From NCBI GenBank assembly GCA_021604005.1, contig BQIV01000024.1:1-64000 (forward strand): 64,000 nt of DNA. Reading direction: 5' to 3'. The notes below the pieces were generated by a model, which searched no databases, was not told the DNA's origin, and was given only the letters and a program-made list of their open reading frames with translations. The position numbers were made by a program, and so were the translations under genes. Source of the DNA: Nitrospirales bacterium (GTDB lineage Bacteria > Nitrospirota > Nitrospiria > Nitrospirales > UBA8639). Below, in pieces: positions 18,361-61,980 of the stretch (the first letter of the stretch is position 1; every line of letters begins with the position of its first letter).

Positions 18361-18498
18361 TGTTGAGATATTTTATCGCGCGAAGCTCATGATATTTTCA
18401 TGTTTGGAGTGTATTTTGGATTCGCTATAGCTGAAACGTTGTACTGCACCAAGTTCGTTGTATTTTCCTCTTTAAAACGTATTTGGATTCGCTATAGC
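18361..18498 (+). repeat. Two tandem copies of a CTATAG-ended repeat
   Basis: Two head-to-tail units of about 68 bases each end in TTTGGATTCGCTATAG (18415-18430 and 18483-18498). Shared inner positions include the AGTTCGT/AGCTCAT and GTATT blocks. The same unit recurs at 48981-49136 and as an inverted pair at 59776-59961, and its end alone near 31000-31016 in reverse. Confidence 0.65.
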
Positions 18499-37795: not shown

Positions 37796-39491
37796 TGTAT
37801 GTAAGGCCCTCCTGGCGAGCCGCTCGCCTGTTATAAATCATCGCGTAAACGCAGGGTACGAAAAATAGGGTGAAGAAGGTGGCAACAAGCAGACCTCCAA
37901 TGACAGCTCGACCCAGCGGTGCATTTTGTGAATATCCTATCGCCATGGGAACCATCCCGAAGATCATGGCCAAAGCTGTCATGAGTACAGGACGGAACCG
38001 CGTCACTCCGGCTTCAACCGCAGCCAGCAACGCATCGCCGTGCTCTTGGAGCCGCTCACGCGCATACGACACAACAAGGATCGAATTGGCGGTTGCCGTC
38101 CCCATGGTCATGATGGCGCCCGTGAGGGCGGGTTCCGAAAGCCGCGTATGGGTCAGGAACAACGCCCACGCGATGCCCGCCAGTGCACCTGGCAGGGCGG
38201 TAATGATGATAAAGGGATCCAGCCAGGATTGGAAGTTGATGACGATCAACAGATAGACCAGCACGACCGCGAAAATCAGTCCGAAGATCAGCTCAAAATA
38301 GGCATCATGCATCAATGAGGCCTGGCCATGGATTTCGAGCTCGGCGGTACGAGGTTTCTCGTCCTCCATGCTTTTGGCAACCTTTTCGACATCCGCCAAG
38401 ACACCTCCCAGATCACGCCCTTCGGCAGATACATAGATATTGAACAGTGGCATAATGTTCCCGTGCGTGATCACACCTGGCGTGCCAACCGCTGAAATCT
38501 CGGCCAAATTACCGAGGAGCTGCACACCCTGATCGTTCGAAGAATCGCTCGATGACTCGACCGGGATCGTCTTGAGACTATTAACACTGTTGATCTGCGA
38601 CTGCGGCGTATAGATGTTGATCAGGTACGACATGCCCGTACTGGGATCGAGCCAATAGTTCTGATCGACCTGTTGGCTTCCAGCGGTGGTCATGAGCAGA
38701 TTATCAGCCATTTCCTTCAGGGATCTATTGACACCCAGTCCGAACGTGCGATTGCCATCGACCGTGAGGGTCGGCGTGCGCATTGTCTGCTGAATCACCA
38801 CGTCCGCGGCGCCAGGAATCTCACGAAACTTGCCCACCAATTTGCGGGCATACTCATAGTTGGGGTACATGTCCGGACCATTGATTTGCACATCGATCGG
38901 CGCAGGCGCGCCGAAGTTGAGAATTTTGGCCGTCAGATCGGATGGCTGGAACGTGAATACAGTTCCCGGATAGCGTTCTCTCAACCCCTTCCGGAGAATG
39001 CGCCGATAATCCCATACCGGCGACTTTTCATCTTTCAAAAGTATTGTCAAGTCACAATCCTGGGAACCGATCGTTGGCGTCGGAATGAAGGCCAGGTTGT
39101 GCGGGCCGACCGGAAGGCCGCAATTACTAACAATGTTTTCGACCTGGCCAGCTAGCAGTTCTTCGATACTGTGAGAGACGAGCGTCGCAATGCGTCCTGC
39201 AACCTCAATACGTGTCCCAAGCGGCGCCCGCATATGCATTGTCATGATGCCCGACCTGATCTCGGGAAAGTAATCGCGACCGAGGAAGAAAAAGAGGGAA
39301 CAAGAGCATACGGCGATAGTCAGTAAGATTATCACAAAGGCGTTGCGGCGGGCGATTGCCTGTTCGAGCAGAGTACCGTAGCGCTCACGGAACCGATTAA
39401 AGTGGCGCTCGAATCCCTTCTGAAAGCGGACGAAGACGTTCCGCGATGATTCCGCACCGAGCTGTCCTGGCTGGTCATGGGCTGGGGACAT
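37788..39491 (-). CDS. RND pump, C-terminal half (separate frame)
   Basis: A 567-residue frame equal to the second half of an RND permease: a cytoplasmic linker (FVRFQKGFERHFNRFRERYG), helix 7 (VIILLTIAVCSCSLFFFLG), the second periplasmic loop region (QDCDLTILLKDE, FNIYVSAEGRDLGGV), and helices 8-12 (LIFAVVLVYLLIVINFQSWL, GTATANSILVVSYARERL, MTALAMIFGMVPMAIG, VIGGLLVATFFTLFFVPCVY). The helix-10 lysine of classic drug pumps is absent (ATANS), as in several other RND branches. Its ATG lies 17 bases before the end of the N-terminal-half frame. Confidence 0.87.
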   Translation of the reverse strand: MSPAHDQPGQLGAESSRNVFVRFQKGFERHFNRFRERYGTLLEQAIARRNAFVIILLTIAVCSCSLFFFLGRDYFPEIRSGIMTMHMRAPLGTRIEVAGRIATLVSHSIEELLAGQVENIVSNCGLPVGPHNLAFIPTPTIGSQDCDLTILLKDEKSPVWDYRRILRKGLRERYPGTVFTFQPSDLTAKILNFGAPAPIDVQINGPDMYPNYEYARKLVGKFREIPGAADVVIQQTMRTPTLTVDGNRTFGLGVNRSLKEMADNLLMTTAGSQQVDQNYWLDPSTGMSYLINIYTPQSQINSVNSLKTIPVESSSDSSNDQGVQLLGNLAEISAVGTPGVITHGNIMPLFNIYVSAEGRDLGGVLADVEKVAKSMEDEKPRTAELEIHGQASLMHDAYFELIFGLIFAVVLVYLLIVINFQSWLDPFIIITALPGALAGIAWALFLTHTRLSEPALTGAIMTMGTATANSILVVSYARERLQEHGDALLAAVEAGVTRFRPVLMTALAMIFGMVPMAIGYSQNAPLGRAVIGGLLVATFFTLFFVPCVYAMIYNRRAARQEGLTYNG

Positions 39492-40974
39492 GGTGATCCT
39501 TTAACATATATTTCGCCATGGTCGGCACCAGGGTACGCGACAGGATGAAAGAAGCGATCATCGCGATGATAACCGCCTCCGCCATAGGTTTGAATAAGTA
39601 GCCAGCGACGCCGCCAAGCCCGAATAACGGAAGCCAGACAATCGCAATACAGAGGGTGGCGACAAGCGTCGGGACGACGATCTGATTGGCGGCGTCAATG
39701 ATGGCCTGTTCGAGCGGCTTGCCCATTTCAATATGGCGATCGATATTTTCGATCATTACGGTCGCATCGTCGACCAGAATGCCGACGGCCAGCGCCAACC
39801 CACCCAAAGTCATGACGTTGATGGTCTCTTCGAGCAGATGCAGACCGATGATAGCGGTCAGAATGGATAAGGGGATTGAGGTCCAGACGATGACCGTGGC
39901 CCGCCATGAGCCAAGCAGCAACAGCACAATGAGGCCGACCAGCGCCCCCGCCAACAGCATTTCATGCAGAACGTCTGCAATCGATTCTTTGACGAACGTC
40001 GAGGCGTCGTCGAGGAGCTTGATCTCCACTCCCTCGGGAGAGATTTCCTCGGCGCGTGGGATCATTTTTTTGATTCCATCGACGACGTCGAGGGTCGAGG
40101 CCTCCGTGCTCTTCATTGCGACAAGAATCACCGTCTGTTTTCCATCCACCAGCACGGAGTTCTGTTGGACCCTACCCATAAGCCGCACCGTCGCCACGTC
40201 GCGCAAGTGGACAAACGCATTGCCTTCCCGCTTGATCGGAAAATTGGCGAAATCTTCAATCTTTAACGGTGACGCGTTCGTCTGGACGATCCAGTCGGTC
40301 TGCTTGATCTTGATGTCGCCGGAAGGCAGCACCAAGTATTGCTGCATGAGCGCCTTGTGAATGTCCGCTGGTGTGAGTTGACGGGCAAGCAATTTCTGTT
40401 GATCGAGGTTAACCATGACCTGCATGTCTTGACCGCCGTAGGGGTGCGGCAGCACAATCCCCGGCACCGTCACAAGCAGAGGGCGGATTCTCATATAAAC
40501 GAGATTGTAGAGCTCCGCGGGCGTCATGTTGTCGGAACTGATTTGGAGCATGGCCACTGGTATAGAGGAAGGCGCAAGACGCATAACCATCGGCGGCGAA
40601 ATATCAGGTGGCAGGGCATTGACGACGTTCTGCGCAATGCCCACGATATCCGCTTCAGCCCTCCCCACGTCGACGTCGTCTTGGAGGAAAATGTTCGTGA
40701 TGCTGCTCCCAAAATAAGAATGACTATGGATATATTTAATCCCTTCCACCGTCGATGTCAGGAAGCGTTCAAACAGATAGGTAATTCGCCCTTCCACTTC
40801 CTGCGGCAACATACCGGAGTAAATCCAGACTACGGAGGTGACGGGAGTCGTGATATTCGGGAAAACGTCGGTTGGCATGTGGCGCACGGTCAGCACACCC
40901 AACAACACAATGAGGATAGTCATAACAACGAAGGTGTATGGCCGTCGTAAAGCAATGAGAACGAGCTTGTTCAT
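39475..40974 (-). CDS. RND pump, N-terminal half (separate frame)
   Basis: A 499-residue frame equal to helices 1-6 of an RND permease: RPYTFVVMTILIVLLGVLTV, MPTDVFPNITTPVTSVVWIY, LPPDISPPMVMRLAPSSIPV, periplasmic pore domains, then VGLIVLLLLGSWRATVIVWT, LALAVGILVDDATVMIENID (the helix-4 acidic pair for proton flow) and LSRTLVPTMAKYMLKDHH. It stops in the cytoplasmic linker (HHVPSP). With the next frame the total is about 1060 residues, the size of one complete pump. It is first in the operon, followed by adaptor and channel. Confidence 0.87.
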   Translation of the reverse strand: MNKLVLIALRRPYTFVVMTILIVLLGVLTVRHMPTDVFPNITTPVTSVVWIYSGMLPQEVEGRITYLFERFLTSTVEGIKYIHSHSYFGSSITNIFLQDDVDVGRAEADIVGIAQNVVNALPPDISPPMVMRLAPSSIPVAMLQISSDNMTPAELYNLVYMRIRPLLVTVPGIVLPHPYGGQDMQVMVNLDQQKLLARQLTPADIHKALMQQYLVLPSGDIKIKQTDWIVQTNASPLKIEDFANFPIKREGNAFVHLRDVATVRLMGRVQQNSVLVDGKQTVILVAMKSTEASTLDVVDGIKKMIPRAEEISPEGVEIKLLDDASTFVKESIADVLHEMLLAGALVGLIVLLLLGSWRATVIVWTSIPLSILTAIIGLHLLEETINVMTLGGLALAVGILVDDATVMIENIDRHIEMGKPLEQAIIDAANQIVVPTLVATLCIAIVWLPLFGLGGVAGYLFKPMAEAVIIAMIASFILSRTLVPTMAKYMLKDHHVPSP

Positions 40975-44745: not shown

Positions 44746-46068
44746 TTAGCCTTTTTTCAGGCTTAACATATAACTGGCCAGGTTGTTTTTATCTTGGTCC
44801 GACAGGTGAAGTTTTGGCATGATGGATCCTGGCGAGACCGATTGAGGATCGGTAAAATGGCGGAGATGCCAAGCCCGATCAGGTCTCCGGTTGCCGACGT
44901 ACGATAAATCTGGTCCGACCTTGCCCCCTTCCCCGTGAATTCTGTGACAGGCTGCACAATGATGTTGGACAAACAGTTTTTGACCTTGGACAACCGACGG
45001 GTCGGACTTTGGAATAGCGTACAAATTTTTTAAGGAAATGCCAAGTAGACCGAACACAATGATCAGAAATCCAATTCCAGCAACCATCACGAGAGGTCTT
45101 TTCGTAGGACGTCGTTCCGAGCGACGATCAAGAAAAGGAAGGAATAGTAGCGCTAAGATAAAGAGGGTCGGGAGAATCCAAGTCGCCACCGGCTCTAACG
45201 GGCCAGTGACATATTTCAGTAACTGATAGAAAAACAAAAAGTACCATTCTGGAACTGGCACAAACGAATGATCCGCAGGATCGGCCTTGTCCGCTAAAGG
45301 AAAGGGAAGAAAGTACGCCAGAGCGGCAAGCAGGAGGAAGAGGCTAACTATGACTACCGCATCCATATAGACCTGCCGAGGCCAAAAGGGTTCACTTCTA
45401 TTTTGCGTTTGTTCGGTATTCCATGGACCAGCTGGACCGACTCGCCGGAGAATGAACAGATGCACCGCGACCCCCATGAGCATCAGAGCCGGAAGAAACA
45501 GTACATGTATCGCAAAGAACCGGGAGAGAGTCAGCGCGCCTAACGTTTCGCCGGCACGGAGGATTCGAACAAGAAAACCTCCGATGCTGGGAAGGGTTCC
45601 CATCATGTTGATGCCTACCTGGGTCGCCCAGTACGCGGTTTGATCCCAGGGGAGAAGGTATCCGGTGAAGGCGAAAGTCAACATAATCAGGAAAAGAATG
45701 ACGCCGACCATCCACATGACTTCTCGAGGAGATTTGTAGGCTCCATAGAGATACACCTGAAGAAGGTGCAGCCCGATTGCCACCATGACCGCAGAAGCAC
45801 CCCAGTGATGCAGTCCGCGCACAAACCAGCCAAACCAGACTTCGTGTTCAATATATTGGATCGAATCGTAAGCATGATCTGGTGTTGGAGCATAATACAA
45901 AGCCAAAAACATACCGGTCACTGCCTGCAAGAGGAAGAGAAACAAGGTGGCCGATCCAAAAACATAGATCCAGCTCGCACCGCCGGGTATGGGTTCATCG
46001 AGAAGTGTGTGCCCAAGAGATTTCAACTTGAGCCGGCCGTCTAACCACTGATAAAGACGCGAAGCCAT
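44746..46068 (-). CDS. Cytochrome b fused to a C-terminal cytochrome c domain
   Basis: A 440-residue subunit of a quinol:cytochrome c oxidoreductase. The N-terminal part has heme ligands in RGLHHWGASAVMVAIGLHLL and FAIHVLFLPALMLMGVAVHL; 14 residues separate the second pair, as in b6 rather than mitochondrial cytochrome b. The Qo motif appears as PVPEWYF. After eight predicted helices a cytochrome c domain follows (HHCAACHRIHGEGGKVGPDL with CAACH, methionine in GSIMPKLHL). It starts three bases after the Rieske gene stop. It should oxidise quinol in the membrane and pass electrons to its own c domain. Confidence 0.92.
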   Translation of the reverse strand: MASRLYQWLDGRLKLKSLGHTLLDEPIPGGASWIYVFGSATLFLFLLQAVTGMFLALYYAPTPDHAYDSIQYIEHEVWFGWFVRGLHHWGASAVMVAIGLHLLQVYLYGAYKSPREVMWMVGVILFLIMLTFAFTGYLLPWDQTAYWATQVGINMMGTLPSIGGFLVRILRAGETLGALTLSRFFAIHVLFLPALMLMGVAVHLFILRRVGPAGPWNTEQTQNRSEPFWPRQVYMDAVVIVSLFLLLAALAYFLPFPLADKADPADHSFVPVPEWYFLFFYQLLKYVTGPLEPVATWILPTLFILALLFLPFLDRRSERRPTKRPLVMVAGIGFLIIVFGLLGISLKNLYAIPKSDPSVVQGQKLFVQHHCAACHRIHGEGGKVGPDLSYVGNRRPDRAWHLRHFTDPQSVSPGSIMPKLHLSDQDKNNLASYMLSLKKG

Positions 46069-46071
46069 CAG

Positions 46072-46581
46072 TTACAGCTCAACCTTTGTCGAGAGTCCGG
46101 ATTTGAATTCTTTGTAGATGACTAGTAATTCTCCATTTTCAATTTTGGATGGTAAAACATCCAAAGGCCGAGGTGCGGGCCCACCCAATACCTTGCCATT
46201 CATGTCATACACGCTCCCATGACATGGACATTTAAACCTTCGATCCTGAGAATCCCAATGATAGCCACACCCTAAATGCGGACAAATCGGAGAAAAGACG
46301 GTCACCGTCTGATCTGGATGTTTCAGGGCCCAAACCGCTTTGGTTTGCCGCGTTTCAAGATAGCCATCCTGTGTGGTAACGGCATAGTCAAGATCTTTAG
46401 GTTCGTTCACAGGAAGATTTTCGACTTTTTCAACTGGCATCCAAGACGCTTTCCGTCGCGTGAGAGCCGGAGAAATGACATATCCTATCAAGGGAATAGC
46501 AAGGGACAGCCCGATAAATGCAGAGGACAGCCCCGTGACCCATTTAACAAAACTCCGCCGCGTTCCGACTGGCGTAGACAT
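46072..46581 (-). CDS. Rieske iron-sulfur protein
   Basis: A 169-residue protein. One membrane anchor near the N-terminus (WVTGLSSAFIGLSLAIPLIG) is preceded by an RR-containing segment (GTRRSFVKW), fitting Tat export. The [2Fe-2S] ligands are in CPHLGCGYHW and CPCHGSVYD (Cys-x-His and Cys-x-x-His boxes, with the extra disulfide cysteines). GPAPRPLDVLP is the usual proline loop. It is the first gene of a two-gene operon with the cytochrome b-c fusion. Confidence 0.93.
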   Translation of the reverse strand: MSTPVGTRRSFVKWVTGLSSAFIGLSLAIPLIGYVISPALTRRKASWMPVEKVENLPVNEPKDLDYAVTTQDGYLETRQTKAVWALKHPDQTVTVFSPICPHLGCGYHWDSQDRRFKCPCHGSVYDMNGKVLGGPAPRPLDVLPSKIENGELLVIYKEFKSGLSTKVEL

Positions 46582-48467: not shown

Positions 48468-48941
48468 TTAAGACGCTACCTTAATAAATTTTAAAACAAG
48501 GAATAAAATATTTTGAAGATCGTAGGGCTTAGAGAAAATGTATAGCGCTCCGGCTTTAAAGGCTTTTTCTTGAATGATGTCCGTAAGATTTCCAGAAATC
48601 ATGATTGCCGGGGGAGGATGAGGATTTTCCAGTGCAAGTTGTTCAAGAAAATCGCAACCATTCATAATTGGCATGTGACAGTCCGTAATAATAAAACTGA
48701 TCGAATTCTTCCGAATAATCTCAAGTGCTGATTTTCCATTTTCTGCCTCTAGACACCTTAGCCCTTGATGCTCAAGAGGCAAACGAAGGACTTCACGACA
48801 ATCAGGATCGTCGTCGACAATCAAGACTGCAGGCGAATAGCCCTTCTCAACCCTTTCATTTGAATACACATGAGAGGCTTGAGGCACCAAAACATTATGC
48901 GCACAATGACCTTGTAAGCCAGATGATTTATGTTTATTCAC
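48468..48941 (-). CDS. Single-domain response regulator
   Basis: A 157-residue protein if started at GTG 48941, which has GGAGGG eight bases upstream; the frame extends to 48992. A 35-residue polar leader is followed by a receiver domain: VLIVDDDPDCREVL (acidic triad), FIITDCHMPIMNG (phospho-acceptor Asp 87), AIMISGN (Ser 116) and YIFSKPYDL (Lys 138). There is no output domain. No kinase is adjacent. It ends at the C-terminus typical of CheY/Spo0F-like proteins, so it probably acts by protein contact or in a phosphorelay. Confidence 0.8.
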   Translation of the reverse strand: MNKHKSSGLQGHCAHNVLVPQASHVYSNERVEKGYSPAVLIVDDDPDCREVLRLPLEHQGLRCLEAENGKSALEIIRKNSISFIITDCHMPIMNGCDFLEQLALENPHPPPAIMISGNLTDIIQEKAFKAGALYIFSKPYDLQNILFLVLKFIKVAS

Positions 48942-48980
48942 AACCAACCCTCCAAAGTGTCCTGCAAGAGTAGAGAGGTA

Positions 48981-49136
48981 TAGCCGCTTCACATAACTTC
49001 CGCTGGTGGAAACGTTCTACCGCGCTGGGCTATAGCCGATTCACTGAACTTCCGAACCCTTGAAGGTTTTGATACCGCGTTGAAAGTCTTTAGGCATTAA
49101 CTGGACCGAATTGAGATTCGCTATACTCTAAAAATA
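48981..49136 (+). repeat. Copy of the CTATAG-ended repeat, tandem and diverged
   Basis: TATAGCCGCTTCACATAACT and TCCGCTGGTGGAAACGTTCT match the left half of the 59.8-kb element. GCTATAGCCGATTCACTGAA then starts a second partial unit, which ends GATTCGCTATA near 49131. Around it, 49137-49895 contains a doubtful 90-codon frame at 49252-49524 (charged, no ribosome site) and nothing else I can support. Confidence 0.55.
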
Positions 49137-49895: not shown

Positions 49896-51074
49896 TTACA
49901 TTATATAATCGTCTGCAGAAAAATCCAAAGACGTGAGAGCTGGGCCTTGAGAGCTTAGCAAGGCTCTTCTAATCATAGCTTCCAATTCTCGGATATTCCC
50001 TGGAAATTTATAATTTCCCAACACGGCAGTTACTGAATAATCAATATCGAGTTTTGGACGACCAATTTCTTCTCCGTAAGCGTGTATCATTTTCATGGCC
50101 AAAGGGATAATGTCCTGCCTACGCTCCCGGAGAGGCGGAATTGAAATTTGATTACTCCGAAGTAACGAAAGCAATTCAGGATGGAAGTTTTTCCCCTGGC
50201 CTGACTGACTCGGCATAATCGTACTGGCCAATACAAAACAATTAGTTATAGGAAACTGTTCCACCCCTCCCATTCGGCAGAAAGAACGGGTACTAATCGC
50301 TTCAGCCAAGCTCCTTTGAACAGGAAAAGGAAGATGTTCGACACCATCAATCAAAAGCGTTCCTTTGTCGGCATGTTCGAAACTTCCCGGCTTGGCCTGA
50401 CTGGCGCCACTAAAGGCTCCTCGTTCATAGCCAAATAAATGGGACTCCAACAGTGGCCCTCTTTGTTCATTGCAACTGACCGCTATAAAAGGAGCCATAT
50501 GTCTGGGACTGTTATAATGAAAAACACGTGACAAAAATTCTTTGCCGGTCCCCACCTCTCCTTGGAGGAATATGACAGGTGCCTCCTGGACGGCAAGAGA
50601 TTTTAGTTGCTCAATGACCTTTACCATGGATTGACTTTTAGCAATCACCTGGTCCCAGGCATATTGACGTTGCTTTTCCAAGGCGGAGTACTCAACTTGA
50701 CTTCTCAGCTCAAGAAAATTAAGCGCACGTTCCAACGCCGGTTCAACTGTTGAAAAATCAACCGATTTAATCAAAAAATCGTACGCTCCAAGACGCATAG
50801 CTGCTACAGCATCTTCGATGGTGCCATATGCGGTTAACAAGATGACTAGGGTTTTGGGAGTCACCTCTCGTAGCCGTTTTAACGTTTCCAATCCATCCAT
50901 TTCTGGCATTTTCAGATCCAGGAAAAGTAGATCAGGTATTTCAAAATCCAAAGCATTAAGAAGGGATTCCCCTGAATTAAAACTTCTCACCAAGTGTCCG
51001 TACTTGGTCAACCGGCGACTTAACGCGGAACACACACTTTGTTCATCATCAGTGACATAAATCGTTGCACGCAT
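49896..51074 (-). CDS. NtrC-like response regulator lacking a DNA-binding domain
   Basis: A 392-residue protein from ATG 51074. The receiver domain is complete (TDDEQ, LLFLDLKMP with Asp 53, LLTAYG with Thr 81, FLIKSVD with Lys 103). The sigma-54 ATPase part has Walker A GEVGTGKE (172-179), GAFSGA (219-224) in place of GAFTGA, and a degenerate Walker B TLLIDGVEHL without the usual DE pair. The arginine-rich sensor stretch (IPPLRERRQDIIPLAMKMI, FPGNIRELEAMI) is present. The protein stops soon after (SADDYIM) with no Fis-type helix-turn-helix. It may be an inactive ATPase working by phospho-dependent binding. Confidence 0.85.
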   Translation of the reverse strand: MRATIYVTDDEQSVCSALSRRLTKYGHLVRSFNSGESLLNALDFEIPDLLFLDLKMPEMDGLETLKRLREVTPKTLVILLTAYGTIEDAVAAMRLGAYDFLIKSVDFSTVEPALERALNFLELRSQVEYSALEKQRQYAWDQVIAKSQSMVKVIEQLKSLAVQEAPVIFLQGEVGTGKEFLSRVFHYNSPRHMAPFIAVSCNEQRGPLLESHLFGYERGAFSGASQAKPGSFEHADKGTLLIDGVEHLPFPVQRSLAEAISTRSFCRMGGVEQFPITNCFVLASTIMPSQSGQGKNFHPELLSLLRSNQISIPPLRERRQDIIPLAMKMIHAYGEEIGRPKLDIDYSVTAVLGNYKFPGNIRELEAMIRRALLSSQGPALTSLDFSADDYIM

Positions 51075-51294
51075 AACAATCCTTAGTGTTCGAAATGAAT
51101 AAGCAAGACCAAACTTCAATCCAGAACTTTGCGGCTCATTGCCAAAACGACATACTCCTCATGACTACGACCGACAAACTGTTATCGGTATCAGGAAACA
51201 CCGCGATGAATTTCATCGTGAGCAATTATACCGTTTTACGGTGAAATCTACCAAGGCATCGAATCGAGAAGAATGCACACAAACCCTGAATTTT

Positions 51295-51669: not shown

Positions 51670-51845
51670 TGTGAAATATCTAGTCTATCTACAAGGATGA
51701 ATGCACAGCTCATCGTCCTCCCTTCCAACCCTATGCTTAGAATTTTCAGATAGTTTACAACTGGTATTAGACTTGCTTAGGGAAACGGTCGTTGCACAGA
51801 TCACGATGAACAACAGCAAACTGAATGTCCAGGAGTAAAGAGACG

Positions 51846-53231
51846 ATGAAAAAATTTCAACGAGCGGCTTCGTCAATCCTTATTCTTATCGGAGCGTTGT
51901 CATGGACCGCGATCGCACTCGGGGCTGGGGATCATACCAAAGAATTCCCGAGTGACTTTGATCGATTGAGTTCCATCTTACAACAACCCAAATCTCTTTC
52001 TGCTGCTACCCCTGAATGGTTAGATTTGGGTATTGAACATCGTACTCGCTATGAAACGTTCGACCACAGCTTTACTCGAGGCACCGCAGGGAGCAATCAG
52101 CAGATTCACCAACGGACGAGAGTCTTGTTGGGAATTAAGGACATCTGGGACCCAATCCGATTCACACTCGAACTGGCTGATTTTCGTGCTCCTCTAGCCG
52201 ATCGAAGGCAAGATCGGTCACCAATTTTTGTCAATCACCTGGACATTTTTCAACTTCATTTTGACCTGGTGACTGATAGTTTTTTGGGAACAGGAATTTC
52301 TGGAAAACTTGAAGTCGGGCGATTGATCATGGATTTTGGGCAAGGACGCTTAGTCGCCGGGCATCGGTTCGGCAGCTTTACTCCATCATTTGATGGCGTA
52401 CAATTGACCTTTGGTGGAGATTCATCCTCCAAGTGGGGACTTCGCGCGTTTGCTACACGACCCGTTCAGCGACATTCTGTTAGCCCGGATTGGAACACCC
52501 CCAGTTCTTATTTTTCAGGTGCCGCGATTTCCAGCCGCCATGTTCCATGGGCCAATGGAGAACTGTATGTCTTTCAACTCAAGGAGGGAAATCATCTTCA
52601 AAAACGGGATCTGTCGACAGTCGGATTTCGACTTTTTTCTCTACCCATGAAAGAACACTTGGATTATGAGATAGAATCGATCTATCAAGTGGGAGAGGTC
52701 GGCCGCACTCATCACTTTGCACATCGTCATCACGGTGAGGTGGGGTACAGCTTAGGGACGGCTTGGCCTCTTCGGTTTGTATACCTGTTTGACTATTCGT
52801 CAGGGGACCCGAACCCGAGAAAAAACTTTGACTTCTTATTCGCGAAACGCCGAGCAGAATACGGACCAACCGGAATTTTGGGAGTCATCTTCCCATCGAA
52901 TATTCTTTCACCCATTGGATTTCGTGCGACCCTTCAACCAACGTCCACGATCAAGTTGATGGCATCTCATCGCACTTTCTGGCTAGCCGATGGTCGCGGC
53001 CCTTTTGTTGGCAGTGGTCTGCAGGATCCCTCTGGTCGAGCGGGCACCTTCCTGGGCAATATGTTTGACACGTCTGTGAATTGGGCTCCTCAAGCTGGCT
53101 ATTTTCGACATACCTCGTTCCAGGTGGGGTATACCCGTTTTTTCAAAGGCTCTTATTTTGATCGAGTCCCACAAAGTCCAGGTACGGCCGATGTGAATTA
53201 TGTATATACCATGGCCGTTATTACGTTCTAG
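51846..53231 (+). CDS. Alginate-export-type outer-membrane porin
   Basis: A 461-residue protein from ATG 51846 with GGAG about 13 bases upstream. A signal peptide (AASSILILIGALSWTAIALG) is followed by PEWLDLGIEHRTRYETFDHS, QIHQRTRVLLGIKDIWDPIR, LEVGRLIMDFGQGRLVAGHR and FDGVQLTF, the pattern of the Alginate_exp beta-barrel family. Later segments alternate as barrel strands and the protein ends in the aromatic motif YTMAVITF. In Nitrospirota such porins are common and probably general; export of alginate itself is not implied. Confidence 0.82.
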   Translation: MKKFQRAASSILILIGALSWTAIALGAGDHTKEFPSDFDRLSSILQQPKSLSAATPEWLDLGIEHRTRYETFDHSFTRGTAGSNQQIHQRTRVLLGIKDIWDPIRFTLELADFRAPLADRRQDRSPIFVNHLDIFQLHFDLVTDSFLGTGISGKLEVGRLIMDFGQGRLVAGHRFGSFTPSFDGVQLTFGGDSSSKWGLRAFATRPVQRHSVSPDWNTPSSYFSGAAISSRHVPWANGELYVFQLKEGNHLQKRDLSTVGFRLFSLPMKEHLDYEIESIYQVGEVGRTHHFAHRHHGEVGYSLGTAWPLRFVYLFDYSSGDPNPRKNFDFLFAKRRAEYGPTGILGVIFPSNILSPIGFRATLQPTSTIKLMASHRTFWLADGRGPFVGSGLQDPSGRAGTFLGNMFDTSVNWAPQAGYFRHTSFQVGYTRFFKGSYFDRVPQSPGTADVNYVYTMAVITF

Positions 53232-54096: not shown

Positions 54097-55320
54097 ATGC
54101 TTGAGGATTTTATCTACAACTTCACCCACAACTTATTTAAACCACTGTTGCTCTTTTTCTATATGGGCTTTCTCATACCTATACTTAAAGTCCCGTTTGA
54201 ATATCCACACGTCTTATATAAAAGCATATCGATTTACCTGTTGATCTCCATCGGCTGGCATGGCGGTGAAGAATTAGCCATGTTAGAGGCCGTTGACCTC
54301 CAACATGCCCTTGGATTCATGATCATCGGCTTCATCACGAACACGATCATCGGAACCATTGCTTATTTTTTCCTCCGATATATGACCAAGCTTCGGCAAA
54401 TCGATGCAGCAACCGTCGCGGGCTACTACGGTTCAGATTCGGCAGGAACCTTTGTCACCTGCGTTGGGGTGCTGGCCGCCACTAATATCGCCTTTGCAGC
54501 ATATATGCCGGTCTTGCTTGCTGTGATGGAAATCCCCGGCTGCCTTGTCGCCCTCTTCCTCGTCTCACGACTTCGGAACTCAGGTCAGATGGACGCCTAC
54601 GGCAATATGCCGGGAGAGCCAGAGTATGACCCCAGTACTCGCCCGAGCATCAATGCTCCGACCCATTCGGAACATCATATGGAAAGTCATGATGGGAAAA
54701 CCGATACCGAGACGACCGTTCCGGTTTACGCAAAATCAGTCGGTGCCGCGGCAGCATCGGACTTTCAACAGTCTCAACCTCAGAGCGTGTTCAGCAAAAA
54801 AGTCTTACACGAGGTGTTCTTCAATCCAGGATTATATTTGCTGTTCGGGGGCATTTTAATTGGATTTATCGGCCGATTGCAGGGAGTGAAAGTCACCGAG
54901 GTTGACGACAAATTTTTTGTTGTTTTATTCCACGGAGTCTTGAGTCTCTTCCTCTTGGAAATGGGAATGACGGCTTGTTCACGACTCAAAGACTTGAAAA
55001 ACGCTGGACCAGGCTTCATCGTATTTGCCCTACTACTGCCAAATGTCTTTGCAATGATCGGTATTCTTGTGACTCATGGATACAGCATGGTACTCGGAGA
55101 GTCCTTCGACGTGGGAACCTATGCGCTTTTTGCAGTGCTGTGCGGAGCGGCATCGTATATTGCCGTTCCGGCTGTTCAACGACTCGCCATTCCTGAAGCA
55201 AGCCCCACTCTGCCATTAGCCGCCTCACTCGGTCTAACATTTACCTACAACGTCACGGTCGGCATCCCGTTGTATATCATGCTGGCCACAGCAGTAATCT
55301 CAGCAATGCCGGTAAATTAA
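54097..55320 (+). CDS. sbtA: SbtA-type sodium-dependent bicarbonate transporter
   Basis: A 407-residue membrane protein; AGGAGC lies about nine bases before the ATG. Family marks are FKPLLLFFYMGFLIPILKVP, LLISIGWHGGEELA, ATVAGYYGSDSAGTFVTCVG, MPVLLAVMEIPGCLVALFL, FLLEMGMTACSRL, AVLCGAASYIAVPAVQRLAI and ASLGLTFTYNVTVGIPLYIM. Two five-helix halves are split by a polar loop (about residues 165-230), as in cyanobacterial SbtA. The family imports bicarbonate with sodium. No SbtB (PII-like) gene is adjacent. With the LCIB-type gene and SulP carrier downstream it forms an inorganic-carbon set. Confidence 0.9.
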   Translation: MLEDFIYNFTHNLFKPLLLFFYMGFLIPILKVPFEYPHVLYKSISIYLLISIGWHGGEELAMLEAVDLQHALGFMIIGFITNTIIGTIAYFFLRYMTKLRQIDAATVAGYYGSDSAGTFVTCVGVLAATNIAFAAYMPVLLAVMEIPGCLVALFLVSRLRNSGQMDAYGNMPGEPEYDPSTRPSINAPTHSEHHMESHDGKTDTETTVPVYAKSVGAAAASDFQQSQPQSVFSKKVLHEVFFNPGLYLLFGGILIGFIGRLQGVKVTEVDDKFFVVLFHGVLSLFLLEMGMTACSRLKDLKNAGPGFIVFALLLPNVFAMIGILVTHGYSMVLGESFDVGTYALFAVLCGAASYIAVPAVQRLAIPEASPTLPLAASLGLTFTYNVTVGIPLYIMLATAVISAMPVN

Positions 55321-56337
55321 GTTTGACCCATTACAGTCTAAGTGAGCGAGGAGACGAGGAATAAGGGGTCACAAACCCACAGGGAGTAACTAATATCTCG
55401 CCGAGGGATGTTAACAGTAATCCAAACATACAGAGACACGCTGATAGCAAACCTGGAAATCTGTCATTGCTTCTAGGAAAATTTGACACTCTTCTCACTC
55501 TACATCCATCTCCGAGCGACTTGACTGGGAGGAAGGATACATGATTAATGCAGGCATCTCCCTCACAATAGGTCTTCATGCACGAAATACACAACAACAT
55601 GAGTCTGACAACGGTGTTCGGCGTTGCAAAATTGAATGACTGCCCTAACTGTCTCGTAGCGAAACGAGGAAAACTGAGGGTTAAGGATTTTTTTTCGTTT
55701 TTTATGCTATGTCATACTCAACAAGCACGTTGTCCATTTAACAGCTTTCCCGCCCCTACTTAATCACTCATACGTCTTACAAGACTCCGGTACAGACTTG
55801 GAGGAAAGTCGCAGAGTATCTTGATTGATTTTAAAAATTATGGGCAACGGATAACATCTCACCTTCTTCAGCCAATAGATGACATGGTCCTTATTCACAA
55901 CAACCACTGCCTGCAGCGAATTCATGGCCTTGCGTTCGCTCACCGGTTGCCATAGAACCCTTTAGCTAAAACATTTGCCCAAACATCCCAATATTCTCTT
56001 GAAGCAGGCACGGTAAAAGTTGCTGTTCCGGCTCCAACAGAATGGGCAGACTAACCCATTCAGCCAATGTCTGGAAATTGTCTTTTCCAGGCTTGAATCT
56101 GATGACATTTCTGTCATTGTAGCCAAGCTAATTCCGCGACGATCTTTTACGTCTCAAATGATTATCTTGACGATTTTTACTATTAAAGAAGAAAAATGAG
56201 AGGAAGGATATTGCTGACCAAACGCCAGAAGGTTAGCGAGGAAAGTGGCCTATTCATACAAACACAAGGCCTGCCTATCACCACTCTTGTTTCAGCACTT
56301 GAACAGTTCAAACGACCTGAGCATGGAAGCGGGTAAA
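55321..56337. other. About 1-kb gap without a recognised gene
   Basis: Several short frames, none with a ribosome site or known motif; in particular no SbtB-like PII protein in any frame. This gap separates the convergent sbtA and LCIB-type genes, so only terminators would be expected. Confidence 0.45.
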
Positions 56338-57087
56338 TCAGGCCACAAGTAGAGGTTTGGGCATCACATTCAATTTTGTCAGTTTCTCTAAATCATCTTT
56401 AACCACAACGTACGGTGTATCCGTCCAGATCCATGTTTGATTGTCGGGACCATGAATTTGCACACCGGTAAAGACTGCATAGGATACAGGGTCATTATTA
56501 ACCGTCAGATAGATCATGCGTTCGAGATCTTCTCGAATGGCACTATGCGCAATTTTGGTCAGGGTGACTAAATCAGGAACTTCTCCATAGCGAATTTTTT
56601 TCAACATCCGTTGCTTCAAGAGACTGAGTTCAATGTCATCTGAGTCAAAATCCAAAGTGATTGAGCCATTGGCAAGTTCTTTTTGTAATCCGAACAATGC
56701 CCCGCACGCATGCGAGACATCCTTTCGGCCAGACCGGTAACAATTGCCGATGACACCTTCGGCATCAATACTAATATGCGGAAACGCAAAGTAGACAACC
56801 CGTTCTTCCCCATCCTCATTTGGTGAATGATGACTCGCTGTCTTGAATCCAGTTTTCCCCAAATACAGCATGCCCGCCAAGCTGGAAAAATCAAAGACAT
56901 GCGTCCACGCCTTTTCAATCTCTTCTATCAAATTTCGGGTCAGTTCATCACGACACACGCTGGCACAGACAATGGCATTTGTCGCGTGAAACCCATATCC
57001 ATGTAAGGCTTCTGATGTTCGTTGTATATAATCTGATGAACGCATTGCTCCAGGAAAATGAGTCTCCACCGTTTCTTCAAACCCCAT
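56338..57087 (-). CDS. LCIB/LCIC-family (theta-type) carbonic anhydrase
   Basis: A 249-residue protein resembling limiting-CO2-inducible protein B. It opens ETHFPGAMRSSDYIQRTSEA, then shows ASVCRDELT (Cys 45 and Asp 47), SSLAGMLYLGKTGFKTASHH (His 86/87), YFAFPHISIDAEGVIGNCYR and VSHACGALFG (Cys 128). In characterised members two cysteines and a histidine bind zinc with a nearby Asp-Arg pair; candidates for all are present. The reaction would be CO2/bicarbonate interconversion. It lies between two anion carriers that could move bicarbonate. No signal peptide, so cytoplasmic. Confidence 0.78.
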   Translation of the reverse strand: MGFEETVETHFPGAMRSSDYIQRTSEALHGYGFHATNAIVCASVCRDELTRNLIEEIEKAWTHVFDFSSLAGMLYLGKTGFKTASHHSPNEDGEERVVYFAFPHISIDAEGVIGNCYRSGRKDVSHACGALFGLQKELANGSITLDFDSDDIELSLLKQRMLKKIRYGEVPDLVTLTKIAHSAIREDLERMIYLTVNNDPVSYAVFTGVQIHGPDNQTWIWTDTPYVVVKDDLEKLTKLNVMPKPLLVA

Positions 57088-57749
57088 CTAACAATCTCGT
57101 CCTTCCTTGCACGTTCATGGGTTCGCAACCCCCATCGTTATGATTTACGCCACGTGTTATTCCAAAACGATCACCATTCCCTACACTAAGCAAATCTTAT
57201 TCCAGAAACAGAACATTCAGAAAAACCCCAAAATACAAAGGAAAATGCCAGTCTAATGATAAGCCTCTCAAAAAAACTCAAGAGATTCAAAGACAATTGA
57301 TTTGATTCGCACAAGCAAACTGAGCGTTTTCACTCAATATGGGAATGTAGAAAAAAGCCGCTGCCTACTCCGGCTTCGTTGCTCGTCGTTCGTTGCTCGT
57401 ATTTCGTGGGAAACGTCCTTCATGTTTTTCTGCTGCCTATACCACAGACTCGTCACGTTTCATGTCTATCAACACGGCACTTCATAATTATTTGTGCAAT
57501 CGGACAGCATCAAAACAGCATGACTTCTCAGACAAGTATCGCTCACAGATATGATTGTCCTGAGTGCTTCATTGTAGAAAATCACGTATTTCTTATATAC
57601 TCTCAGCATTTTTACGACAACATTGCCATACGTTGCCAACAAGAACACCAAAGACAACATATCTATCTGCGACCAATCGAATAGATGTTCTGCACAAGCA
57701 ACCTATTCCACATTCATCTCTTGGCTCCCAATAGATCGATAGCCTGTTA
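57088..57749. other. Divergent intergenic region (LCIB-type and SulP genes)
   Basis: About 660 bases between genes that point away from each other, so promoters for both should lie here. ATTTGTGCAATCGGACAGCA at 57491-57510 recalls the GCGCA/TTGTGC motifs upstream of the stress genes, but only weakly. No gene seen. Confidence 0.4.
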
Positions 57750-59513
57750 ATGGAACGCATACGCGAATACCTCAAAGACTTTAATTTCACAGAAAACCTC
57801 CAAGGGTTAGGCAGTCACGTTCGCGGTGACGTCTTGGCAGGCATTACCGTGGCGATGGTGGTTCTTCCGATGGCTCTGGCTTTTGGAGTGGCCTCCGGCC
57901 TTGGTGCTATTGCCGGCATGTGGTCCGCGGTTGCTGCGGGCCTTGTTGCCGGTCCCTTAAGTGGATCCGCCTGGTCGGTGGGGGGACCGACCGGACCGAT
58001 CACCATTCAAATCCTGACCATTGCCCAGACCCATCAAACATCTGATGGCACTCCGGACTTAATCTTTATTTTTACAACTATTGCCTTAGCTGGCTTTATC
58101 TTGATTGTGTTGGGCCTTCTAAAGCTCGGACAGTTTATAAAGTTTACCCCGTATTCCGTCATTTCCGGATTCATGACCGGACTAGGGGTTTTATACATGC
58201 TGCTTCAACTCAATCCCTTTCTCGGCCTTGACGGAGTCAAAAGCATCACGGCTGCTATCACGGAATTGCCGTGGAGTCTCACCCATGCGTCACCGGCGGC
58301 AATGGGGATTGGAATGTTGACCTTACTGCTCGTCATCGCGTGGCCGAAAATCTCGCCGGTGCCCTGGTTGCCCGGCCCCTTAATTGGCTTGCTAGCTGGA
58401 ACAATCACAACCGTTGCGTTAGGACTAGATATCCCTACGATTGGGGATATCCCGACCGGCTTACCCAGCCTGTACCTTCCTGATCTGACGCTCCTTGAAT
58501 CCGCCTTTGTCCCCGCTGCCGCCCTCGCCGGCCTCTGCATTTTCGATAGCCTACTAACCTGTCTCATTGTCGATAATATGACCGGGACTCATCACAACAG
58601 CGATCGTGAACTCGTCGCACAAGGTTCCGCGAATCTATTTTCTGGACTTGTCGGAGGCTTAGGAGGCGCCACCAACACCATGCCATGTGTCGTCAACATT
58701 CAAAGTGGAGCGCACACACGATTAGCTTCGATGACGATGGGTCTCGTCTTACTATCATTCATCCTGGGGCTTGGCCCGCTGGCGGCTTCAATTCCGCTTT
58801 CGGCTTTAGCGGGAATTCTCTTGAAAGCTGGATATGACATTTTAGATATGCGGGTCCTCCCTGTGGTCCGGCGCCTGCCCACATCCGATCTCTTGGTGTT
58901 TGGACTTGTCGTCTTTATGACCGTGTTTTGGAATTTGCTCTCGGCCATGGCCATTGGACTAGCCGCCGCATTTTTTCGGTTTGTCAAAGATCAAGCCGAT
59001 CGGTATATTGCCGACCTCGACCGACGGAATGAAGATGTGAAGCAAGAAGAAAATGATCTTATTTTTGCCTTTGCGCGAGACCATGCACGGCAAATTAGCC
59101 TTAATGGAGAAAATAGAGGAGAGATCAGCGGTCGGTTCGAGCACATTGTGCGAGATCGCATTGTCTTTGTCCGCCCTCATGGACCATTATTTTTTGGAGC
59201 CATCGATTGGCTCAATGAAACGGTCGAACATCTTGAAGGAAAAGATGTCCTCATCATCCGGTGCAAATGGCTAGATGAATTAGATTTATCGGGAGCCTAT
59301 GCCTTAGGCGATTTAATCGAAGCGGCAAATAGTCGTGGAGTAGAGGTCCTGACTGCCGGTATGTCGCCGAGAACTCGTCAGGTGCTTGAAGATTTGAACG
59401 AACTGTCCCGGCTCAAAGAAGATCACATTTGCACACACTTTAATGAAACCCTCGAGAAAGCCGTACAGATAATCGAACAGAAGACAGTCGCCGCCTCCTC
59501 CAACACACTCTGA
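57750..59513 (+). CDS. SulP-family anion transporter with STAS domain
   Basis: A 587-residue membrane protein. The transport domain has VRGDVLAGITVAMVVLPMAL, GPLSGSAWSVGGPTGPITIQ, FTPYSVISGFMTGLGVLYML, LIVDNMTGTHHNSDRELVAQ, GSANLFSGLVGGLGGATNTM and PLSALAGILLKAGYDILDMR. A cytoplasmic STAS domain follows from about residue 465 (RIVFVRPHGPLFFGAIDWLN, LDELDLSGAYALGDLIEAAN). The family moves sulfate or bicarbonate; the neighbourhood of sbtA and an LCIB-type enzyme favours bicarbonate, as in BicA, but substrate is inferred. It differs from SbtA in having no sodium-site family link that I can read. Confidence 0.87.
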   Translation: MERIREYLKDFNFTENLQGLGSHVRGDVLAGITVAMVVLPMALAFGVASGLGAIAGMWSAVAAGLVAGPLSGSAWSVGGPTGPITIQILTIAQTHQTSDGTPDLIFIFTTIALAGFILIVLGLLKLGQFIKFTPYSVISGFMTGLGVLYMLLQLNPFLGLDGVKSITAAITELPWSLTHASPAAMGIGMLTLLLVIAWPKISPVPWLPGPLIGLLAGTITTVALGLDIPTIGDIPTGLPSLYLPDLTLLESAFVPAAALAGLCIFDSLLTCLIVDNMTGTHHNSDRELVAQGSANLFSGLVGGLGGATNTMPCVVNIQSGAHTRLASMTMGLVLLSFILGLGPLAASIPLSALAGILLKAGYDILDMRVLPVVRRLPTSDLLVFGLVVFMTVFWNLLSAMAIGLAAAFFRFVKDQADRYIADLDRRNEDVKQEENDLIFAFARDHARQISLNGENRGEISGRFEHIVRDRIVFVRPHGPLFFGAIDWLNETVEHLEGKDVLIIRCKWLDELDLSGAYALGDLIEAANSRGVEVLTAGMSPRTRQVLEDLNELSRLKEDHICTHFNETLEKAVQIIEQKTVAASSNTL

Positions 59514-59775
59514 CCGAATCTTCGACGATCACATCTATCGCGAACCCACGTACATTCAAATCAGTGGAATATTGTTCTCGCACGCACACCACACATCAAG
59601 AAAGGCCTCTTACAATTAGAAGGGATGGTATAGTATTTTAACTTTTTCTCAGTTCCTATGATCTAACGCCTACAGGCCAGTCCGCAGAGGGTAAAACCCT
59701 AGGACGATAAGCAATGCATGTGATGAATGAGGGAATGGGAATGCTCCATGTTCTTGAGCAAAAGCTCCTCCTCCA

Positions 59776-59961
59776 CTATAGCAAATCCAAATACACTCCA
59801 AACATAAACATATCATGATCTCCGGGCGGTACCATCTATCAACGAAGAGAAATTCCTTGAACCGGCTATAGCCGGTTCAAATAACTTCCGCTCGTTGAAA
59901 CATGGTACCGCGCGGAGTTCGTGGTATTCTTCTGATTGGAATTTATTTGGATTCGCTATAG
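59776..59961. repeat. MITE-like inverted element with CTATAG ends
   Basis: Two copies of the dispersed repeat face each other. The left end CTATAGCAAATCCAAATAC (59776) mirrors the right end TATTTGGATTCGCTATAG (to 59961), and the centre is a perfect 24-base palindrome (TTGAACCGGCTA, 59857-59868, then its complement). The whole is an imperfect 186-base hairpin. Single units occur at 18.4 and 49.0 kb. No transposase frame is inside, so a nonautonomous mobile repeat is the best reading. Confidence 0.65.
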
Positions 59962-60530
59962 AGTGCAAGGGAAGGAAAAGATGCAGTTGAGACTTGAATG
60001 CCAACGAATGCGAAATGTATCTAGACACTCGTCTCATGACAAAGACGAAAATGCAATACACGCACTTCACTCAAATTCTTGACATGATCGCCCAGGTTAT
60101 CAGCAGTATGAGTGTAAACGCTTCCATGTGACTGTACCTCTGTATCGGTGAGTAATCTTCTTCAGTGGTTGCGAGCAAGGTAAATGCCAGATTGTCTGAC
60201 ACACCGCATTCAATGAAACAGCTAGATATTTCGCGCACTTACGAACGCCAACTCTCTTCGGTATACCCACGGCTCTTCTGGACTGTGCGATTTCATATAA
60301 CGCATACAGTACGTAATCGCACAATTTAAAGCAGTTGACGCATCTGCGTAAAACTCTATCTCACGACAGGGTCAATGCTAGATCATTCCAATCTCAGCAC
60401 GTTGGCCCGGTACAATTGTGCAAAAATTGTTTGATTCAAGAAGTGCGACCTGAAGCTTGAGATTTCAACAGCTACCTATCAATTACTTCAATTCCCCATT
60501 AAACACCTCATTGATGTTCGGACAGGAAAT

Positions 60531-60814: not shown

Positions 60815-61012
60815 ATGATTGAAAAAGAACAAAAAACTACGGACGCAGACCAGCAGGTCACCGAGACTGACTCTCAGCTTGATGAACGTGAACATCAGTT
60901 ACTGGAGACCTACAAAACCTTGCAGAAATACGCCTCACAACATTTTTCATGTGATGAGTCCGCCGCCGGCCTCGCGCAGTTGTCAAGTGAACGGAAGTTT
61001 TTCGAGCCTTGA
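60815..61012 (+). CDS. Small conserved protein upstream of stress protein, first copy
   Basis: A 65-residue soluble, acidic, helical protein (MIEKEQKTTDADQQVTETDS, then REHQLLETYKTLQKYASQHF, SCDESAAGLAQLSSERKFFEP). The block QLLETYKTLQKYASQHFSCD is nearly repeated in the small protein at 62936, which proves selection on the frame. Its end overlaps the start of the following coding unit's leader by a few bases. I know no family. A regulator or partner of the double stress protein is a guess from context. Confidence 0.65.
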   Translation: MIEKEQKTTDADQQVTETDSQLDEREHQLLETYKTLQKYASQHFSCDESAAGLAQLSSERKFFEP

Positions 61013-61029
61013 AGCAAAGGAACGCGAGT

Positions 61030-61980
61030 ATGACCAACCTCAAAGATTCACTCCTTCCACAAACCAAACTCCTGCGACCCAAAACAAACAGTCTGACAAC
61101 GTCAACCCTCGACAACAACACGACTCTCACGCCGTTCAATCTGTGTCGTATTTTCCACCCCACCGACTGCTCGGCTGAAAGTACGTTGGCTTTTATCCAT
61201 GCACTAAAAATAGCTCAAGCAACCGGTGCCGAATTGAGCATTTTTCATCGCGAACAGAGCAGAGAGAAAAAGATTCTCCCAACCTTGAACGATTCCCCTC
61301 ACGTTCGAACTACCCTCACAGAGTGGGGAAAACAATTCAGTGCGTCTGAAAAAAGCCAAGATGAAAAAAATGGATTTTCTGTTGAGAAAATCTTGGCAAT
61401 GCCCTCAAACGCAAAGAACGAAACGCGACAATATTATCGAGACAATTCTACTGATCTGATTGTTCTTACGACTCACCAGCACCATGGTTTCTGCTTTTTC
61501 TCTTCTTACAGGACCGCCGAGGCCATAACGTCTACGTATGGAGTCATGACCTTAGTGGTCCCGTCAGGCTGCCAAGGGTTTGTGTCGCCTCTTGATAGGA
61601 CTGTCACGCTAAACCGCATTCTCATTCCGATTTCGTCTACTCCTGATCCACAGACTGCTATAGATGCGACATCGGCCATGGCTCAAATATTAGGAAATCC
61701 TGAAGGTGTCTTCACATTGCTTCATATTGGATGTGAACAAGATATGCCAAACATAGAGTTGCCGGATCATCCAGGATGGACATGGAAAACCACGATCAAA
61801 ACAGGGAAGGTCGTCGACGAGGTGTTATTCGAAGATGCTGAGCAGTCCTTCAATCTTATTGTTATGACCACACGAGGCCACCAACATTTTCTCGAGGCCA
61901 TACTCGAAACCACAACCGAAAGTGTGATGCAACAGGCACGATGCCCCATCCTTGTGCTACCAACACTCTCACCATCATAA
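61030..61980 (+). CDS. Double-domain universal stress protein, first copy
   Basis: A 316-residue protein from ATG 61030 (AAAGGAA upstream); an in-frame TTG at 61009 overlaps the small gene's stop. Two UspA units: residues about 40-180 (RIFHPTDCSAESTLAFIHAL, DLIVLTTHQHHG, TLVVPSG) and about 190-316 (LNRILIPISSTPDPQTAIDA, FNLIVMTTRGHQHFLEAILE, ARCPILVLP). The second unit ends with the usual GRGH-like loop and PILVLP strand, while the first loop is diverged, so ATP binding may be limited to one unit. Its paralogue starts at 63168. Confidence 0.85.
   Translation: MTNLKDSLLPQTKLLRPKTNSLTTSTLDNNTTLTPFNLCRIFHPTDCSAESTLAFIHALKIAQATGAELSIFHREQSREKKILPTLNDSPHVRTTLTEWGKQFSASEKSQDEKNGFSVEKILAMPSNAKNETRQYYRDNSTDLIVLTTHQHHGFCFFSSYRTAEAITSTYGVMTLVVPSGCQGFVSPLDRTVTLNRILIPISSTPDPQTAIDATSAMAQILGNPEGVFTLLHIGCEQDMPNIELPDHPGWTWKTTIKTGKVVDEVLFEDAEQSFNLIVMTTRGHQHFLEAILETTTESVMQQARCPILVLPTLSPS

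Follow-up and report, generated by a model that had tools for sequence, protein, structure and literature searches.

How does a nitrite-oxidizing autotroph that has no carboxysomes obtain its inorganic carbon? The reductive TCA cycle needs both CO2 and HCO3-, and inorganic-carbon acquisition is poorly known in chemolithoautotrophs that use this cycle and lack carboxysomes. We discuss here a locus from such a bacterium, a member of Nitrospirales, in a 64,000-nucleotide stretch of DNA (the window; contig BQIV01000024.1 of assembly GCA_021604005.1, positions 1 to 64,000). A preliminary description, made from this sequence alone, had proposed that genes for an SbtA-family transporter, an LCIB-type carbonic anhydrase and a SulP carrier form a distinct module for carbon supply. 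In our reading, to which we give a probability of about 0.7, the locus serves inorganic-carbon acquisition, with a porin for entry, SbtA and SulP for import, and LCIB for conversion in support of the reductive TCA cycle. The locus gives concrete and testable parts in a nitrite-oxidizer lineage, and the outer-membrane step is rarely considered.

The locus and its transporters

The Nitrospirota origin and the reductive TCA cycle were both suppositions that are now supported, as the genome is that of a member of Nitrospirales with ATP-citrate lyase, of which the citrate-binding domain was matched. Carboxysome genes had been thought absent, and a search of the genome for BMC shell proteins (PF00936) indeed gave no match, on which ground we reject a carboxysome-type CO2-concentrating mechanism. 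The three open reading frames are present as described and Pfam profiles confirm their families (Table 1). They are not co-directional, and the gaps SbtA-LCIB and LCIB-SulP are 1017 and 663 bp, so that a single operon is ruled out. A search of the window for a tRNA marking an integration site found none.

Table 1. Features of the locus, with positions in the window
Feature	Position	Strand	Basis
NtrC-family response regulator (REC + sigma-54 AAA+)	49896-51119	-	PF00072, PF00158, PF25601; orthologue alignment
Weak sigma-54-type -24/-12 site	51762-51776	+	TGGTATTAGACTTGC, 2 mismatches, 63 bp before porin
Outer-membrane beta-barrel porin, PF13372 family	51825-53231	+	PF13372 E=4.7e-43; orthologues; termini
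SbtA-family transporter, 407 aa	54097-55320	+	PF05982, structure 7cye
Segment of about 5.2 kb (LCIB + SulP)	55321-60525		absent here in NPIRA01/NPIRA04
LCIB-type (beta/theta-like) carbonic anhydrase, 249 aa	56338-57087	-	PF18599, structure 5k5w
SulP/SLC26 carrier + STAS domain, BicA-like, 587 aa	57750-59513	+	PF00916, PF01740, 6ki1
Universal stress protein	61009-61980	+	PF00582; next conserved gene beyond LCIB-SulP segment

The SbtA-family protein is a probable Na+/HCO3- symporter, with a full-length match to PF05982 (Sbt_1; E=1.3e-95, spanning 1-307 of 308) in the Pfam profile search and E=7.1e-24 against the solved structure 7cye. It is a member of a Nitrospirales-Nitrosomonas-Planctomycetota group that stands well apart from the remaining SbtA proteins in the phylum. 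The PII-like protein SbtB, noted earlier as not visible, is absent from the window and from the rest of the genome, and SbtB control of SbtA is rejected on that ground. SbtB is found beside SbtA in genomes G251, G314 and G302.

The SulP carrier appears from its sequence to be closest to BicA. It matches PF00916 (Sulfate_transp; E=1.4e-70) and the STAS domain PF01740 (E=1.3e-11), and the BicA transmembrane domain 6ki1 is by far the best solved structure (E=5.5e-74). The best NCBIfam model is also that for BicA (NF050096), at 344 bits, which does not reach the curated equivalog cut-off of 880. The side-chain ligands for HCO3- and Na+ in BicA are T69, D258, T262 and T302 (PMC13249358), and all are conserved, as T81, D266, T270 and T310. 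The positions of BicA G300 and A301 differ, being T308 and N309, and this and the low NCBIfam score count against our reading. SulP members carry many anions and there are many SulP paralogues in the family, and with a score under the BicA cut-off one could argue that this protein moves sulfate or another anion, in a region of general use for anions or salt adaptation where inorganic carbon concerns SbtA and LCIB alone. We think this quite improbable given that BicA gives the best model and the best structure and that the ligands are kept, and also because the sister genus constantly has SulP linked with LCIB, the two sharing a promoter-like motif there.

The LCIB-type protein and other carbonic anhydrases

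The 249-residue protein belongs to the LCIB family as had been proposed, and the preliminary description would have been refuted had it not; it matches PF18599 (LCIB_C_CA) over its full length (E=9.4e-54, spanning 2-222 of 223) in the Pfam profile search, and the structure 5k5w with E=3.2e-38. Its N-terminus has no obvious signal peptide. Candidates for a Cys/His/Cys zinc site and an Asp-Arg pair are all present, namely C45, H104 (or H87), C128, D47 and R118. The zinc ligands had been given as Cys45, His86/87 and Cys128. Cys45, Asp47, His87, His104, Arg118 and Cys128 are invariant in all 36 distinct Nitrospirota homologues, whereas His86 is kept in only 26 of the 36. The H88A mutation of PtLCIB4 falls at the residue aligned with His87, and we infer that the zinc-binding His is more likely to be His104 than His87.

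With regard to other carbonic anhydrases, a search of this genome, for which completeness is given as 100%, found no match to PF00484, the beta-carbonic anhydrase family. Each of four congeners examined has one such gene and no LCIB. A periplasmic alpha-carbonic anhydrase is encoded elsewhere in this genome. On this distribution of genes LCIB probably fills the place of the missing beta-carbonic anhydrase. However most sister-genus genomes carry both, which counts against replacement in general and leads us to reject a clean mutual exclusion across the family, and the loss of the beta-carbonic anhydrase alongside LCIB is one case. We therefore claim replacement for this genome only. In G251 and G308 frameshifts and stops seem to disrupt the beta-carbonic-anhydrase genes, with sequencing error a possibility in these single-contig assemblies.

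The activity of LCIB proteins is disputed. According to PMC5876011, Jin et al. (2016) found CrLCIB to be inactive in vitro; it has Arg46 in common with the window protein, a point against carbonic-anhydrase activity, and PtLCIB4, reported active (PMC9614477), has Ser at that position. The window protein could thus be a structural or regulatory relative and not an active enzyme. We consider this unlikely. The six residues listed above are invariant, and the lack of a beta-carbonic anhydrase here, where the congeners each have one, is what a takeover by LCIB would give. Kasili et al. (2023), cited in PMC13275658, later reported that CrLCIB complements carbonic-anhydrase-deficient yeast and Arabidopsis. 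A bacterial LCIB in a genome without beta-carbonic anhydrase makes the question directly testable.

Gene order and promoter-like sites in relatives

The family comparison covered 49 genomes, and SbtA, LCIB and SulP are grouped in this one only. G251, a single-contig relative, has all three, with SbtA over 500 kb away from either of its LCIB genes. The three-gene grouping is thus absent from the other family genomes compared, yet the genes are not simply scattered, as in six sister-genus genomes LCIB and the orthologous SulP are 3.6-4.9 kb apart, together with a porin and a regulator, and NhaB or NhaD-type Na+/H+ antiporters are found beside this unit. The congeners NPIRA01 and NPIRA04 have the porin next to SbtA and lack LCIB and SulP. 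The distinct module of three genes does not extend beyond this genome, but the LCIB-SulP and SbtA-porin linkages within it do.

The porin and regulator genes of the window, overlooked earlier, belong to the unit on comparison with relatives. The window SulP shares 83-88% identity with the SulP that accompanies LCIB and porin in the sister genus, and the regulator 62-71% with orthologues there that adjoin LCIB. The porin has a signal-peptide-like N-terminus and a C-terminal Phe; its orthologues are 76-80% identical where beside SulP in the sister genus and 90-91% where beside SbtA in NPIRA01 and NPIRA04, and two Nitrosomonas loci have a related porin (56-59%) adjacent to SbtA or close to it. 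From these comparisons the conserved unit inside the cluster is judged to be LCIB, the NtrC-type regulator, the porin and SulP, and to be older than the three-gene grouping.

The LCIB-SulP segment has no counterpart at this place in NPIRA01 and NPIRA04, although both flanks align colinearly, and in NPIRA01 the universal-stress-protein orthologue directly follows sbtA. A palindromic repeat lies within the segment. Taken with the occurrence of the grouping in 1 of 49 genomes, this could mean that reshuffling brought the three genes together incidentally, by placing an LCIB-SulP segment beside a porin-SbtA pair, and that there is no three-gene module. We regard this as a real possibility, but not the favoured one. 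One genus has this porin and regulator with SulP and LCIB, and the other has them with SbtA. In the tree the window LCIB groups as sister to the LCIB proteins from the sister-genus unit (support 99/94). On both counts the parts share an ancestral locus.

In the sister genus, sites of the sigma-54 type are conserved ahead of SulP and LCIB and, in some cases, the porin. Allowing up to one mismatch, TGGCAC-N5-TTGC is found in 14 of 24 upstream regions of these genes (sister-genus loci plus G302), as against 1 of 91 other genes, and 0.03 of 24 expected. In the window such promoter-like sites are weak or absent before the module genes: the site before the porin, TGGTATTAGACTTGC, has 2 mismatches, whereas NPIRA01 and NPIRA04 have TGGCATTAGTTTTGC, with 1 mismatch, at -44 of the porin. 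The window regulator is without the C-terminal extension present in the sister genus, and its Walker B DE is changed to DG. The linked regulator and the sites thus look eroded in this genome. The view that control must differ from that in cyanobacteria gains from the conserved sites in relatives, but for this genome the apparent erosion leaves it weaker.

A proposed pathway and known systems

We suggest that bicarbonate would cross the outer membrane by the PF13372 porin, the proposed entry, and that SbtA and the BicA-like SulP would import it through the inner membrane, probably together with Na+. In the cytoplasm the LCIB-type enzyme would then interconvert HCO3- and CO2, supplying CO2 to ferredoxin-dependent carboxylases in the reductive TCA cycle and HCO3- to biotin and PEP carboxylases. 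The ancestral unit of LCIB, regulator, porin and SulP would be switched on by sigma-54 and the NtrC-type regulator and not by SbtB gating, and in the window genus, with the regulator altered, sigma-54 control may be partly lost. Two further points count against this explanation: two congeners keep porin and SbtA without LCIB and SulP, and CO2 leakage can result where bicarbonate importers and a cytoplasmic carbonic anhydrase occur together (PMC10880623). A broader proposal, which we put forward tentatively and think somewhat unlikely as a whole, is of a trans-envelope carbon pathway in nitrite oxidizers, with a bicarbonate porin, exchangeable SulP and SbtA importers and LCIB, ancestrally one sigma-54 regulon, the porin and SbtA being shared with Nitrosomonas by gene transfer and LCIB replacing beta-carbonic anhydrase here.

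Among the papers searched, none relevant was found that connects LCIB and Nitrospirota, or that connects bicarbonate uptake by chemolithoautotrophs to a porin. The transporter families are those of cyanobacterial SbtA/SbtB and BicA (Synechocystis 7cye/7egk and 6ki1), with full-length matches here, but this genome has neither SbtB nor carboxysome shell genes and its SbtA falls in the group described above (54-92% identical). The LCIB protein is a full-length homologue of algal LCIB/LCIC (Chlamydomonas 5k5w, 5b5x) and matches in the CRDE motif and invariant residues, but it is bacterial, with no pyrenoid, and its gene is linked to those of a SulP carrier, porin and NtrC-type regulator. A survey of inorganic-carbon toolkits of autotrophs (PMC10880623) also has a transporter with a carbonic anhydrase in reductive-TCA 'Nitrospirae'; it gives gene counts per genome, LCIB is absent from its main text, and no porin or promoter evidence was seen in it. 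In the lineage-IV Nitrospirales, BicA-like carriers, Nha antiporters and carbonic anhydrase have been proposed for Nitrospira marina, there feeding the reductive TCA cycle (PMC8115632), and for Ca. N. alkalitolerans (PMC7784846). These share with our locus the BicA-like SulP, beside NhaB in relatives, and a carbonic anhydrase for the reductive TCA cycle. They also involve Mrp, and the available text of the two papers mentions alpha, beta, gamma and SulP-fused carbonic anhydrases, but not LCIB, SbtA, a porin or sigma-54 sites. The import logic had thus already been proposed for Nitrospira, and the new elements here are the LCIB-type enzyme, the link to a porin and the sigma-54 signature.

The three proteins and their candidate residues

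The preliminary description took three ORFs for an inorganic-carbon island of SbtA, LCIB-type carbonic anhydrase and SulP carrier. All three were confirmed at their coordinates, and the families are borne out by near full-length profile matches (PF05982, PF18599, and PF00916 with PF01740 respectively). The top solved-structure matches by sequence search are 7cye for SbtA, 5k5w for LCIB and BicA 6ki1 for SulP, but the SulP protein scores 344 bits with the NCBIfam BicA profile against a cut-off of 880, which allows it to be called BicA-like on sequence but does not support identity with BicA itself. The BicA ligands T69, D258, T262 and T302 (PMC13249358) correspond to T81, D266, T270 and T310 in SulP, and BicA G300 and A301 to T308 and N309. 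The genes do not form a single operon, as the strands alternate and the intergenic gaps are 1017 and 663 bp.

Of the zinc ligands first proposed for LCIB, Cys45 and Cys128 stand, but we prefer H104 to His86/87. C45, D47, H87, H104, R118 and C128 are invariant in all 36 distinct Nitrospirota LCIB proteins. R46 and H87 align with S47 and H88 of PtLCIB4, both of them sites mutated in crystallised variants (5b60, 5b5z), and H87/R118 have the spacing of CrLCIB His162/Arg194, two residues that PMC5876011 describes as disordered in the inactive form. It is because of these correspondences that we take C45-H104-C128 as the more likely ligands.

Features of the window
Feature	Coordinates	Strand
Palindrome copy	18334-18497	
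AcrB-family pump gene, two ORFs	37788-40974	-
Cytochrome b/cytochrome c fusion	44746-46581	-
Receiver-domain ORF	48468-48992	
Palindrome copy	48979-49025	
Sigma-54-type site	49188	-
NtrC-type regulator	49896-51119	
PF13372 porin	51825-53231	
SbtA	54097-55320	+
LCIB-SulP segment	55321-60525	
LCIB	56338-57087	-
SulP	57750-59513	+
Palindrome	59776-59961	

Distribution, gene order and trees

LCIB matches were found in 45 and SbtA in 14 of 296 phylum genomes, and both only in the window genome and G251. Within the family (49 genomes searched) the figures are 15 and 6, and a close SulP orthologue (83-88%) is commonly present in sister-genus genomes. The proposed three-gene grouping holds for the window genome and for none of the other 48. 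On the single contig of G251, LCIB occurs at 1.295 Mb, close to SulP (1.300 Mb), and again at 3.708 Mb, and SbtA lies at 3.139 Mb.

In the sister genus LCIB adjoins an NtrC-type regulator, with a PF13372 porin and SulP then on the opposite strand; regulator and porin are 62-71% and 76-80% identical to those of the window. LCIB and SulP are 3.6-4.9 kb apart in G231, G251, G308, G315, G317 and G324; in G251 and G324 the SulP-linked LCIB copy is broken. The unit is retained in G316, its LCIB degraded, and in G311 and G322 its parts are split over separate short contigs. The flanks include NhaB, NhaD-type antiporters, Tll0287-like proteins and a CHASE3/PAS histidine kinase. Six LCIB proteins of this unit, four of which share a contig with SulP, form the sister group (99/94) of window LCIB, and a second LCIB paralogue clade is separate from them all.

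The nearest named relatives of window SbtA are in the Nitrospirales MAGs NPIRA01 and NPIRA04 (91-92%), where the order is regulator, porin, SbtA; both lack the LCIB-SulP segment and are colinear with the window on either side of it. In the tree this SbtA groups with those of Nitrospirales, Nitrosomonas and Planctomycetota, far from other Nitrospirota SbtA. In Nitrosomonas aestuarii the porin (59% identical) is immediately 5' of SbtA (69%), and in Nitrosomonas sp. NMNS01 it is within 5 kb. Transfer between nitrifiers, in one direction or the other, is likely. Homologue searches found an SbtB/PII-like gene accompanying SbtA in G251 (PF00543), G314 and G302, and none in the window genome; the preliminary description had seen none in the window.

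More distant PF13372-family porins (32-33%) adjoin or neighbour LCIB in three genomes from the Nitrospiraceae side of the order. In other Nitrospirota families (six loci, L049, L051 and L053-L056) a DASS-type Na+ symporter adjoins LCIB, often with CitMHS/NhaD-type transporters and CBS-domain proteins nearby, and at Nitrosomonas loci L098 and L105 two-component genes also accompany the related porin and close SbtA.

Within the LCIB-SulP segment lies a palindrome with 93-nt arms, 80% complementary and without spacer; it is probably a MITE/REP-like repeat, as related copies occur elsewhere in the window. The AcrB-family gene comprises two overlapping ORFs (profile positions 4-494 and 499-1020), through frameshift, natural split or assembly error, and the cytochrome b fused with a cytochrome c domain adjoins a Rieske protein.

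Sigma-54-type sites

A TGGCAT-N5-TTGC site lies 76-105 bp upstream of SulP in every sister-genus locus examined and in G302, in sequence that has otherwise diverged. A perfect TGGCAC-N5-TTGC lies upstream of the linked LCIB in G231, G315 and G317; in G251 and G308 one falls at the start region of the longest ORF of this LCIB. The other LCIB paralogue has none upstream. Sites with at most one mismatch occur in 14 of 24 module upstream regions (SulP, LCIB and porin of sister-genus loci plus G302; 0.03 expected) against 1 of 91 others, an enrichment that the Fisher p of 7.5e-11 overstates since the copies are related. Window porin and LCIB have weak sites upstream, and window SulP has none. In the window's genus the regulator is without the C-terminal extension, and its Walker B DE is changed to DG; the G231 and G317 orthologues likewise lack the Walker B Glu. 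A further site, TGGCATTCCAGTTGC, lies 196 bp upstream of the receiver-domain ORF and is shared by NPIRA04 (L095).

Carbon supply in the host genome

The window comes from contig C24 of a 4.7 Mb genome. The SulP-NhaB linkage of its relatives matches the arrangement reported for lineage IV (PMC8115632), and lineage IV is family UBA8639 in PMC12342949, to which we infer that the genome belongs. It encodes an ATP-citrate-lyase citrate-binding domain and a single alpha-carbonic anhydrase whose N-terminus resembles a signal peptide; neither a BMC shell protein nor a PF00484 beta-carbonic anhydrase was found in it. The four congeners compared all have beta-carbonic anhydrase and lack LCIB, whereas the window genome shows the reverse, consistent, as a single case, with LCIB standing in place of the beta enzyme. 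In two LCIB-carrying single-contig genomes, G251 and G308 (L113, L114), frameshifts and stops seem to disrupt the beta-carbonic anhydrase genes, possibly through sequencing error.

We found no prior description of the LCIB enzyme, the porin or the sigma-54 signature in the open-licence papers searched. The best reading is that imported bicarbonate would feed the reductive TCA cycle and that LCIB would interconvert HCO3- and CO2 in the cytoplasm. The general import scheme is itself published, for two lineage-IV Nitrospira (PMC8115632, PMC7784846) and in a survey (PMC10880623).
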